DNA of 64,000 nucleotides from Laspinema olomoucense D3b (GTDB lineage: Bacteria; Cyanobacteriota; Cyanobacteriia; Cyanobacteriales; Laspinemataceae), in NCBI RefSeq assembly GCF_025370785.1, contig NZ_JAMXFA010000005.1:173508-237507 (forward strand), written 5' to 3'. Shown one piece after another: positions 25,942-28,793 of the stretch. Every line of letters starts with the position of its first letter. Position 1 is the stretch's first letter. The notes below the pieces were generated by a model. The model made no database searches. It saw only the letters and a list, made by a program, of their open reading frames with translations, and was not told where the DNA came from. The translations under genes and the position numbers were made by a program.

Positions 25942-26142
25942 ATGGTTCACATTCGTTTTGAAGGTCGTTCTTACGACGTCACTGAAACTCAAATAGGCAT
26001 TACAGAATCCATGACCGATACAGCCATAAAACAACAGCTTGCCCGTCACTTTGAGGTGAGTAGCGATCGCTTCAATGATTACGTTTGCGATCGGCGCCCT
26101 TCCGGTGATTTAATCGTTCGCCCAGAAGCCGTTTACGGTTAA
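25942..26142 (+). CDS. Small protein, possibly beta-grasp (ubiquitin-like)
   Basis: 66 residues from the ATG at 25942 behind CAAGGAG; longer frames upstream are not protein-like. The order strand (VHIRFEGRSYDV), helix (TDTAIKQQLARHF), strands (FNDYVCDRR; DLIVRPEAVYG) would fit a beta-grasp/Ubl fold like that of small PRTRC-C-type proteins; this is inference from pattern only. There is no C-terminal GG, although it ends in G. It lies 30 bp before the first Y-RNA-like unit and 0.9 kb before the TROVE gene, with which it probably forms a functional locus. Confidence 0.6.
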   Translation: MVHIRFEGRSYDVTETQIGITESMTDTAIKQQLARHFEVSSDRFNDYVCDRRPSGDLIVRPEAVYG

Positions 26143-26172
26143 ACTCCACCTCCTAGATTTGATAACAATTAG

Positions 26173-26298
26173 CACTTCGCGCCCTAACTTACAAAGCTTA
26201 CATACTTGCTCACTGGTAGGGCATTACTTCCTGTAAGTAACACTAGCAGGTTCGATTCCTGCGTATGAACCAACGGCTTTCTTGACTTGCGCGAAGTG
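26173..26298 (+). ncRNA. Y-RNA-like unit 1
   Basis: The ends pair as CACTTCGCGC/GCGCGAAGTG, followed by TTTTAATTTT. An internal loop (CCTAACTTAC opposite CTTGACTT) and AAAGC/GCTTT lead into a tRNA-like cloverleaf at 26199-26269: acceptor TACATAC/GTATGAA, D arm with GGTA, anticodon-like loop TCCTGTA, T arm GCAGG-TTCGATT-CCTGC. The 3' strand CUUGACUUG resembles the CUUGACUAG of vertebrate Y RNAs that contacts Ro60. Confidence 0.75.
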
Positions 26299-26338
26299 TT
26301 TTAATTTTCTGCGGTTCAACACCCTTTTAATATCCAGG

Positions 26339-26458
26339 CACTTCGTATCCCAACGCAGAAAGCTTACATACTTTGGTAACGCTTTACTCTCATCAAGTAA
26401 ATGCAGCAGGTTCGATCCCTGTGAATGACGCAACGGCTTTCTGGACTTGTACGAGGTG
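26339..26458 (+). ncRNA. Y-RNA-like unit 2
   Basis: Ends CACTTCGTA/TACGAGGTG: both strands changed relative to unit 1 while pairing is kept. The tRNA-like insert has a reduced D arm (TTTGGTAAC), anticodon-like loop CTCATCA in TTTAC/GTAAA, and T arm GCAGG-TTCGATC-CCTGT. The 3' strand reads CTGGACTTG. A T-rich stretch follows. Confidence 0.72.
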
Positions 26459-26497
26459 TTTAAATTTTTCCGTGTTCCACTGTTTTGTGTACCCCGG

Positions 26498-26623
26498 CAC
26501 TTCGCGCCCTAACTTAAAAAGCTTACATACTTGCTCACTGGTAGGGCATTACTTTATGGAAGTAACCTTAGCAGGTTCGATTCCTGCGTATGAAATAACG
26601 GCTTTTTTGACTTGCGTGAAGTG
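26498..26623 (+). ncRNA. Y-RNA-like unit 3
   Basis: Ends CACTTCGCGC/GCGTGAAGTG (one G-U). The internal strands CCTAACTTAA and TTTGACTTG match unit 1. The tRNA-like insert repeats the D arm and T arm of unit 1, with anticodon-like loop TTATGGA in TTACT/AGTAA. TTTTAATTTT follows, terminator-like. Confidence 0.73.
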
Positions 26624-26662
26624 TTTTAATTTTCTCCCTTTCAAAACTGTTTTAATATCAGG

Positions 26663-26788
26663 CACTTCGTACCCCTACTCAGAAAGCTTACATACTTGCT
26701 CACTGGTGGAGCATTACTCTGATAAAGTAACCCCAGCAGGTTCGATTCCTGCGTATGAACCAACGGCTTTCTGGACTTGTACGAGGTG
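26663..26788 (+). ncRNA. Y-RNA-like unit 4
   Basis: Ends CACTTCGTA/TACGAGGTG as in unit 2. The insert is the most regular cloverleaf: D stem GCTC/GAGC, anticodon-like TTACT-CTGATAA-AGTAA (would read GAU), variable CCCCA, T arm GCAGG-TTCGATT-CCTGC, 3' GTATGAACC. The 3' strand reads CTGGACTTG. Confidence 0.73.
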
Positions 26789-26828
26789 GTTAAATTTTTC
26801 GGGTTTCATCCGGCTTGTAGTATCCACG

Positions 26829-26962
26829 CACTTCGCGCCCTAACTGCAAAAGCTTACATACTTGCTACTGGTAAAGCGCTTGATTCAAAATCAAGTACCC
26901 GTAAGGGTTTGTGGGTTCAACTCCCATGTATAAACAACGGCTTTTCAAACTTGCGCGAAGTG
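26829..26962 (+). ncRNA. Y-RNA-like unit 5 with class II tRNA-Leu-like insert
   Basis: Ends CACTTCGCGC/GCGCGAAGTG, then TTCTTTTTTTT, the best terminator of the five. The insert has anticodon-like CTTGA-TTCAAAA-TCAAG (CAA), an extra ACCC-GTAA-GGGT arm and T arm GTGGG-TTCAACT-CCCAT, so it resembles a class II tRNA-Leu(CAA), unlike the class I inserts of units 1-4. The acceptor-like stem is weak. The 3' strand reads CAAACTTG. Confidence 0.72.
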
Positions 26963-27035
26963 TTCTTTTTTTTGTTAAATCTTACATCATTTAAAGCTCA
27001 TTAAAAAAAATCATTTAGACAAAAGGAGGACGTTC

Positions 27036-28469
27036 ATGAATGCAGCCGAACGGGATTTAAGACTGGAAATGCTGAATAGTTTGCTAACAACCCCACACCG
27101 CAAACTGGAAGATGTGGCCGAATTACATCAGCTAATGGTGGAACTAGACCCGATTTTTTATGGTCATTTGGGGGTTTGGTATAGCAAAAATGGAGATGTC
27201 CGCGATCATAAAGAAGTATTTGTAGGACATTTACTCACCAGTCCCTTAACTGCACATCGGGAAGCGGGTTTCGTGATGCTGCAAGAGTTTCCTCCATATC
27301 AAGTGGGACGGGTTGTAGACTTTATGAAGCAGCATCGGGGAAAAGTACCCCGTTCCTCACGGACGGCAGTGACGCAATACCTACGCGATCGCGAAAAAAA
27401 TGCCAGATTCTTTGATCGCGCCGCACTTCGTAACCGCAGTGCCATGAAACATCTGTATGCCAGCTTGCATATCAAACCGAGCGATCGCGCCGATGCGGTG
27501 TTGTTTAAAAACAAACCCCCCCAGGATTCTCTCGCCTATATCCTGAAGCAATTGGCAAAATCACCCAATCCGGCAGAACAAGCGGCGCTGATTGTAGAAC
27601 ATAATATCCCCTATCCGATCGCAATTGGTGCCGTTCAACAGTTAACCCCCACTGTCTTAGTCGCACTAATTAACTCCATGTCGGCGCAGGAAGTGATCAA
27701 TAACCTGAAATCCCTGCAAGCACGAGGTGCGATGGATCATCCCGATGTCAAAGCGTTGATTGAGGGAAAATTACAACAAGCACAAACAAGCGATCGCGTC
27801 TCTGCCTACAAAGCGCGAGTCGCTGCCGATGCTGCTAACCTGGATGCTGATACCACCGCACAGCTAGAACAAATTACTAACGAACAAGTCAAAAAGCGCG
27901 GGAAAATCAGCAAACCCACAGGATTGCTGGTAGACAAATCCGGTTCAATGAACTCGGCGATCGATCTGGGTAAGCGTCTAGCTGCCATGATTTCCGGGAT
28001 TTCCGAAGCGGAACTCTATGTCTACGCCTTCGATACCATGCCTTACCCAGTTACTGCGCAAGGCAGTGAATTAAGCGACTGGGAACGTGCTTTCGATGGG
28101 ATTAAGGCAGGTGGCGGCACCAGTATCGGTTGTGCCTTAGAAGCCATGCGTCGGAAAAAGCAGGTTGTGGACCAAATCATCCTCGTCACCGATGAAGGTG
28201 AGAATGGTCATCCCCATTTCGCCGATGTTTATCAAACCTACTCTCGCGAATTTGCGGTGATGCCGAATGTCATCATCGTCCGTGTGGGAAGTTTCTCCAA
28301 TTGGGTAGAAACCCAACTCAAGCAAAAGCAAGTGCCGGTGGAAACCTTCACCTTTGCCGGAGATTACTATTCCCTGCCGAATCTCGTCCCCTTGCTGTCT
28401 CGTCCCTCGCGCCTGGATTTGCTGATGGAGATTATGGACACTCCCCTGCCGGTGCGTCAAAATAAATAA
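27036..28469 (+). CDS. rsr: Ro60/Rsr-like TROVE-VWA RNA-binding protein
   Basis: 477 residues behind a strong AAAGGAGG site. The N-terminal two-thirds is helical and repeat-like, with DPIFYGHLGVWYSKNG and the segment around DREKNARFFDRAALRNRSAM fitting TROVE/HEAT repeats that form the RNA-binding ring of Ro60. From about residue 295 there is a VWA domain with an intact MIDAS: LLVDKSGSM (DxSxS), GGGTSIG (Thr) and LVTDEGEN (Asp). Bacterial Rsr binds Y RNAs and can tether them to polynucleotide phosphorylase for structured-RNA decay. The five Y-RNA-like units immediately upstream are its likely ligands. It is shorter than Ro60 (about 530 residues). Confidence 0.87.
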   Translation: MNAAERDLRLEMLNSLLTTPHRKLEDVAELHQLMVELDPIFYGHLGVWYSKNGDVRDHKEVFVGHLLTSPLTAHREAGFVMLQEFPPYQVGRVVDFMKQHRGKVPRSSRTAVTQYLRDREKNARFFDRAALRNRSAMKHLYASLHIKPSDRADAVLFKNKPPQDSLAYILKQLAKSPNPAEQAALIVEHNIPYPIAIGAVQQLTPTVLVALINSMSAQEVINNLKSLQARGAMDHPDVKALIEGKLQQAQTSDRVSAYKARVAADAANLDADTTAQLEQITNEQVKKRGKISKPTGLLVDKSGSMNSAIDLGKRLAAMISGISEAELYVYAFDTMPYPVTAQGSELSDWERAFDGIKAGGGTSIGCALEAMRRKKQVVDQIILVTDEGENGHPHFADVYQTYSREFAVMPNVIIVRVGSFSNWVETQLKQKQVPVETFTFAGDYYSLPNLVPLLSRPSRLDLLMEIMDTPLPVRQNK

Positions 28470-28529
28470 AGGAAGTCGGATGCGCTACGGCGCATCCAGC
28501 TTATTTATACCTATTCTCCCTTAAATCCT

Positions 28530-28793
28530 ATGCAGTGTGGACTCTGCCAACGAGAGATGGAGAACCTCACGGTTCACCACCTGATTCCGAAACAAAAAGA
28601 TGGAGCAAAAGGGCCGAGGGTTGATATTTGTTCAGCCTGTCACCGTCAGGTTCATGCACTCTTTGATAATGCTCAACTGGCGAAGGAACTTAATACGGTG
28701 GAAAAACTCCAGGAAGAACCCCAAATGAAGAAATTTCTGGCTTGGGTGAGGAAGCAAAAGCCCGAGAAAAAGATTAAGGTGCATCGCGCCTAA
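28530..28793 (+). CDS. Small HNH endonuclease-type protein
   Basis: 87 residues. Two CxxC pairs (CGLCQREM; CSACHRQVHALF) and HHLIPKQKDG give a compact zinc HNH domain with His-His and a C-terminal His. It starts 60 bp after the TROVE gene on the same strand and may be cotranscribed. The target nucleic acid is unknown; in this context an RNA or DNA processing role is possible but not shown. Confidence 0.75.
   Translation: MQCGLCQREMENLTVHHLIPKQKDGAKGPRVDICSACHRQVHALFDNAQLAKELNTVEKLQEEPQMKKFLAWVRKQKPEKKIKVHRA

Follow-up and report, generated by a model that had tools for sequence, protein, structure and literature searches.

In a 64-kb window (the whole stretch of DNA analyzed here) of the 7.0-Mb cyanobacterial assembly of Laspinema olomoucense D3b, a 477-aa protein with a predicted Ro60 fold (27036..28469, + strand) is encoded directly behind five tandem RNA units, each of which holds a tRNA-like body in a common paired frame, and downstream of a sixth predicted RNA that copies parts of 23S rRNA. 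We propose that the protein binds the frame and that the resulting particles serve as decoys for attackers of the translation machinery, a reading to which we give roughly an even chance of being right. At the level of sequence, the covarying frame, its association with the gene, and the segments copied from tRNA and 23S rRNA are established. All elements of the locus lie on the + strand, in the order promoter-like site, 26 tRNAs, GNAT acetyltransferase, 66-aa protein, five RNA units, 477-aa protein, and HNH protein.

A preliminary description of this DNA had recognized the five tandem units, and the frame scan supports them, with boundaries at 26171-26963 and no other frames in the window. 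Units 1 (26171..26299), 3 (26496..26624), and 4 (26661..26789) contain tRNA-like bodies with the triplets CTG, ATG, and GAT, respectively, and unit 5 (26827..26963) resembles tRNA-Leu, with a long variable arm and a CAA triplet. ARAGORN read a tRNA in these four units; the body of unit 2 (26338..26459) lacks part of the D arm. Each unit folds better than its own shuffles (z −2.0 to −4.0, n = 5) and is built from approximately 11 outer pairs and an inner AAAGC/GCTTT helix, with CCCTAAC- and ACTTG-type strands in between and the tRNA-like body attached via a five-pair acceptor-like stem. Compensatory change was found in 5 of the 40 pairs of the five-unit alignment. A covariance model of the five units, run against the genome that contains them, scored the units at 107.6-153.4 bits and the next match at 38.1. 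Rfam matches to the units at E up to 5 included no Y RNA family, as far as the searched library covers such families.

The same frame recurs at related loci, for which counts were restricted to L001-L063; L064-L093, which may duplicate those, were left out. The scan of 94 sequences returned 275 hits compared with 2 in reversed sequence, and unrelated contigs gave 3 frames in 1.04 Mb. Removing 5 hits in L064, which duplicates the locus of the window, and 3 hits antisense to the ro gene left 267, removing 5 that contain another frame left 262, and the 23S-copying RNA of the window, added by hand because the scan does not detect it with its divergent outer stem, brought the set to 263. The 63 loci hold 207 frames, 196 upstream and 11 downstream of the gene, at 1 to 10 per locus; the frame is present in 49 of the 53 loci with more than 1 kb upstream and in 6 of the 10 with shorter flanks. 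End-pairing and the inner helix are kept in relatives, with 95.3% of cells paired across 41 aligned units, against 82.7% in shuffled and 32-52% in slid controls, and with change on both sides in 21 of 38 pairs. The paired percentage is favored by selection because the scan itself requires pairing, a requirement that affects the double changes and the slid control less. The reversed-sequence, unrelated-contig, shuffled, and slid controls rule out chance inverted repeats. Plain tRNA genes were likewise rejected because the acceptor end is not free: in place of the seven-pair acceptor stem and free CCA end of a functional tRNA, the 41 aligned units have a five-pair stem whose two strands both continue as the frame. 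The framed RNAs do show the features of a bacterial Y RNA, with 5′ and 3′ ends that pair, a conserved internal loop, and a position beside a Ro-like gene. The likeness of one internal strand to the vertebrate CUUGACUUG was only partly retained, since ACTTG is nearly fixed over the 41 units but the preceding CTTG is not. A full match to the vertebrate CUUGACUAG was thus ruled out and ACUUG alone remains, judged against what we take to be the vertebrate Y RNA letters.

The contents of the frame are diverse. The 207 frames carry 87 tRNA bodies, 33 short hairpins, 32 T-arm-like inserts, 12 permuted tRNA bodies, 8 sarcin-ricin/GTPase-center inserts, 7 inserts from helices 69-71, and 28 unassigned inserts; the 87 frames in which ARAGORN reads a tRNA have a tRNA-like domain, a feature of YrlA. 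Among the tRNA-type frames of these loci and the window, 87 of 91 have a readable 3-nt triplet. The surrounding loop is well kept in these 87 (U33 in 77, a purine at 37 in 83, A38 in 70), and positions 34-36 carry 0.09-0.39 bits, with 29 different triplets. No triplet is repeated in 28 of the 29 loci with several tRNA-type units, which is weak evidence because few repeats are expected by chance anyway. Bodies were classed as permuted when ARAGORN read a tRNA only across the junction of the doubled insert, which was the case in 16 of 263 frames and once in 5 × 263 shuffles. This count is a minimum; further frames of approximately 150 nt, seemingly permuted on visual inspection, were left in the T-arm-like class. 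In the permuted folds inspected, a loop closes the acceptor stem and the body is attached through its anticodon side.

Scored against Escherichia coli rRNA, 29 of 268 frames reached at least 35, where the shuffled maximum was 29. Fifteen of them fall in 23S 1036-1114 and 13 in 23S 1909-1941, and the one elsewhere is a tRNA-type frame with a score of 37; a further 8 of 268 score 30-33, among which L018 alone lies at helices 69-71. The sixth RNA of the window (23553..23786), set in a frame-like stem inside the tRNA array, scores 43 and matches the Rfam LSU family at 23663-23718 (E 4.9e-12). It contains the sarcin-ricin core AGTACGAGAGGA (23600..23611), identical to E. coli 23S 2654-2665, and a copy of the GTPase-associated center (23667..23725) that aligns to E. 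coli 23S 1056-1114. Apart from E. coli rRNA, 23 copies of the 12-nt core were found (in 15 of L001-L063, the window, and 7 further loci), 22 of them as AGTACGAGAGGA and one as the 1-nt variant AGTATGAGAGGA, and the GTPase-center hairpin comes after the core in all 23 cases. The range first described, 25942..28793, holds the five units and leaves out this RNA of the same kind. That description had proposed a multi-copy Y RNA/Ro system with several tRNA mimics, which the predicted fold, the covariation, and the conserved linkage support well but which is too narrow: because permuted tRNA bodies and 23S pieces occupy the same frame, the theme is mimicry of translation RNAs, not of tRNA alone. The recognized inserts (anticodon loops, the tRNA elbow, the sarcin-ricin loop with the factor site, and helices 69-71) have in common that they are parts of these RNAs that enzymes recognize or attack.

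Two further kinds of framed RNA were seen. One, approximately 150 nt long, lies directly 5′ of the gene, has the hairpins GGTGCGTAT..ATACGCTGCAAGCC..AGCAGGC, and has no match to known RNAs (L026:5792-5942, L028:5794-5945, L047:5726-5875, L052:5790-5943, L060:5743-5888, and L061:5795-5943). The other, 112-117 nt long with the hairpin GTCTGAAGCCGTCTTCAGGC, falls outside the assigned insert classes (L031:5603-5718, L032:2996-3112, L036:5593-5704, L042:658-770, and L043:5732-5846).

RNA and protein also co-occur across genomes. Among 386 cyanobacterial genomes, 33 have some match to the Ro-like protein, which in 28 is clear (E below 1e-50, a cut-off of our choosing); only the latter were counted as ro genomes, leaving aside 5 with weak matches (E 2.4e-13 to 1e-3). 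The sarcin-ricin RNA pattern was found in 22 of the 386 and in none with the backwards control. Twenty-one of the 22 are ro genomes, with G062 as the exception, and the pattern is absent from 7 ro genomes (Fisher 1e-27, a value inflated by the relatedness of the genomes). RNA and gene are on different contigs in G129, G213, G060, G118, G229, and G336 (several of them drafts, with the distance undefined) and lie 57 kb apart in G008 and 31 kb apart in G039, so tight linkage alone cannot explain the co-occurrence. A helix-69 pattern matched in 11 of the 386 genomes, but roughly two dozen hits also came from its backwards control. On visual inspection, 23S-like strings make up 10 of the 11, and all of these 10 except the one in G328 are in ro genomes. 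The clear-match genomes include split, fragmentary, or stop-bearing gene copies. In G074, G167, and G385, the Ro-like gene is partial or has an internal stop, which suggests repeated loss of the system.

The predicted structure of the 477-aa protein consists of a helical-repeat ring followed by a VWA domain, and the best-matching solved structures are those of Ro60, suggesting that the protein has a Ro60 fold. A profile of 35 relatives reaches two PDB TROVE entries (E 1.6e-4 and 1.7e-4), and PF25045 (vWA_Ro60) matches 7 of the 35 at E up to 1, the best at 5e-4. The VWA domain carries a DxSxS metal-site motif, DKSGS, at residues 300-304, in which Asp300, Lys301, Ser302, and Ser304 are invariant in the 35 relatives and Gly303 is kept in at least 90%. 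Of the 7998 candidates scored in the protein search, 3321 were relatives at E up to 0.001, the best 120 of the 3321 having 74-93% identity. By this protein, the closest named relatives are in Laspinema, Oscillatoria, and Phormidium (92-95% identity), and homologs were also found in planctomycete, Pyrinomonadaceae, and one "Actinomycetota" metagenome-assembled genome. PADLOC matched none of the Ro-like, 66-aa, and HNH proteins.

The 26-tRNA array (21487..24565, by ARAGORN and Rfam) stands behind a putative promoter (21256..21284) that reads TTGACA-N17-TAGTAT and contains TGTAGTAT twice. According to the sections of PMC10272220 on the Anabaena 26-tRNA operon, TGTAGTAT at the −10 box mediates its repression by TrcR, and translation-targeting antibiotics activate the operon. 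The window contains 6 copies of TGTAGTAT (0.59 expected; as many in 0 of 100 shuffles), including one directly 5′ of unit 5 (26816..26823), and in L001-L063 it occurs 77 times on the + strand and 14 times on the other, compared with 0-11 in six Markov simulations. The promoter pattern TTGACN-N16-18-TAGTAT was found 24 times on the + strand of the 63 loci and the window, 0 times on the − strand, and 0 times in reversed sequence. By analogy with Anabaena, TrcR may control the promoter-like site of the window.

Taken as a mechanism, the decoy proposal would run as follows. Cells would transcribe the predicted small RNAs, and TrcR-type control of the tRNA array, including the rRNA mimic inside it, would lead to induction during translational stress. 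The Ro-like protein would bind the conserved stem with the CCCTAAC and ACTTG strands, leaving the copied part exposed; anticodon nucleases, 23S-targeting enzymes, or similar putative attackers would be occupied by the copies, and the tRNA array would meanwhile replace lost tRNAs. Such a role would explain the variation of the anticodon on a fixed loop, the spare tRNAs nearby, the stress control, and the contigs listed as viral that are described below.

Several observations weigh against this proposal. Pfam TROVE (PF05731) does not match the 477-aa protein, so the name TROVE-VWA gene given to it earlier is upheld by the predicted fold and not by Pfam. The frame was missed in 4 of the 53 loci with longer flanks (L011, L015, L058, and L059), 28 of the 207 inserts have no known likeness, the 33 short hairpins copy nothing recognized, and some triplets (CTA, ATT, and 4-nt reads) are odd for real tRNAs. 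TGTAGTAT is rarely found just 5′ of single units, an exact copy being the best hit in 9 of 258 distinct upstream stretches, and at least nine tRNAs were found near only 8 of the 29 loci scanned, which makes the array a frequent rather than constant companion.

A serious rival, though in our view an unlikely one, is that the copied modules are handles that recruit tRNA or rRNA modification, repair, or PNPase-type decay enzymes, or translation factors, to the Ro-like ring, which would then serve in the quality control or repair of tRNA and rRNA that have been damaged. The Deinococcus Y RNA tethers Rsr to PNPase, as described in the relevant part of PMC7790460, Ro60 in the best-matching solved structures binds misfolded RNA, and a gene for the RNA 2′-phosphotransferase Tpt1/KptA is near 8 of the 64 loci compared (for example, L039:10946-11500). 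Handles alone, however, do not account for so many triplets within a constant anticodon loop, nor for a copy that joins the sarcin-ricin loop to the GTPase center. It is improbable that the copies serve as bait for an alarm in which a cut copy alters the particle and the response passes through a ubiquitin-like protein and a nearby E1-like enzyme. The 66-aa protein (25942..26142), predicted to be beta-grasp-like, is present in 40 of the 63 loci and the window, always with a C-terminal Gly, and a ThiF/E1-like gene is near 18 of the 64 loci (for example, L018:11895-12578); yet no such gene is in the 14.5-kb window segment compared, and the ubiquitin-type structure matches are weak (best E 0.23). 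The two proteins may form a ubiquitin-like pair tied to the Ro-like locus.

We consider it very improbable that what the copied modules soak up is not enzymes but ribosome-targeting antibiotics or translation factors. The induction of the Anabaena tRNA operon by ribosome-targeting antibiotics, in the same sections of PMC10272220, fits such a sponge, as do L7/L12 paralogs near 14 and EF-Ts near 7 of the 64 loci (for example, L021:625-1011 and L008:8602-9204), but it is not evident how tRNA bodies that differ in anticodon would help against small molecules. That the units are decaying, functionless copies in a mobile island is barely credible, for although the patchy distribution (28 of 386 genomes) and the stop-bearing or fragmentary gene copies would suit it, the covariation, the fixed frame, the exact sarcin-ricin core in 22 of 23 copies, and the genome-level co-occurrence contradict it.

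The remaining neighbors include the GNAT acetyltransferase (24585-25556), between the tRNA array and the 66-aa gene, and a small HNH protein (28530..28793), HlpB-like but under the NCBIfam cut-off. L7/L12, EF-Ts, and Tpt1/KptA, each of which, like ThiF/E1, was named from one example, recur as if spare translation parts were kept together; none of the three was found in the 14.5-kb window segment. Four more recurring families have no significant Pfam domain (L008:2026-2820, L018:5029-5505, L057:1856-2797, and L037:8648-9553).

Ro-like relatives with 39-49% identity are also encoded on 8 IMG/VR contigs (L103-L110, up to 470 kb), and a slightly looser scan found frames in 5 of these loci, none in 3, and none in reversed sequence. 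PHROGs detected no structural phage gene among 10 open reading frames from three of the eight contigs, so their viral nature rests on the IMG/VR label. L109 has a frame of the permuted-tRNA type, and L103 has a tRNA array. The single sarcin-ricin hit in IMG/VR (L121) was discarded, as no GTPase-center copy follows it within the 381 bases inspected, and the helix-69 pattern gave unspecific matches among the IMG/VR matches listed.

That Ro proteins associate with tRNA-mimicking Y RNAs is already known. Like the bacterial Rsr/Y RNA systems covered in the part of PMC7790460 concerned with Salmonella rsr-yrlBA-rtcBA and Deinococcus Rsr-Y RNA-PNPase, the present locus pairs a Ro60-fold protein, predicted here, with adjoining small RNAs with paired ends, and, as in Salmonella YrlA of the same source, the RNA has a tRNA-like domain. 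It departs from those systems in having as many as ten RNAs at a locus, several tRNA bodies that differ in their triplets, permuted bodies, 23S copies, and a protein outside Pfam TROVE, and, in contrast to Salmonella, there is no rtcBA among the clustered neighbors. The likeness to vertebrate Ro60/Y RNA consists of the predicted fold and the ACUUG strand beside the lower stem, the vertebrate sequence being the one assumed above. The Y RNAs of vertebrates are not known to include copies of tRNA or rRNA. The 26-tRNA array behind a promoter with TGTAGTAT resembles the Anabaena trn operon under TrcR, but the terms Ro60, vWA, 23S, and tRNA-like occur 0 times in the text of PMC10272220. Phage tRNAs reportedly evade tRNA-targeting defense, with altered anticodon loops said to answer tRNA attack. 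The bodies described here share the altered anticodon loops, whereas phage tRNAs are true tRNAs and these are framed without a free acceptor end, and rRNA is copied too. We found no paper on rRNA-mimicking or permuted-tRNA Y RNAs in an open-licence library that does not include the main paper on YrlA, so they may have been described elsewhere.

The purpose that Ro proteins and Y RNAs serve in bacteria lay, as PMC7790460 itself states, outside its studies. As each insert names a likely partner or attacker, that role becomes directly testable, and Ro, tRNA arrays, and a known translational-stress repressor gain a shared setting. The locus family also offers natural minimal copies of the ribosome factor-binding site and permuted tRNA bodies. 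More tentatively, and with somewhat less confidence than doubt, we suggest that a stress-induced Ro particle may carry a swappable library of copied translation weak points (many anticodon loops, the elbow/acceptor side of permuted tRNA, the sarcin-ricin loop with the GTPase-associated center, and helices 69-71) on one Y-RNA frame, acting as a general shield against toxins that attack translation and against defense nucleases in bacteria and probably in large phages. If true, this would amount to an entirely new category of RNA-based protection.

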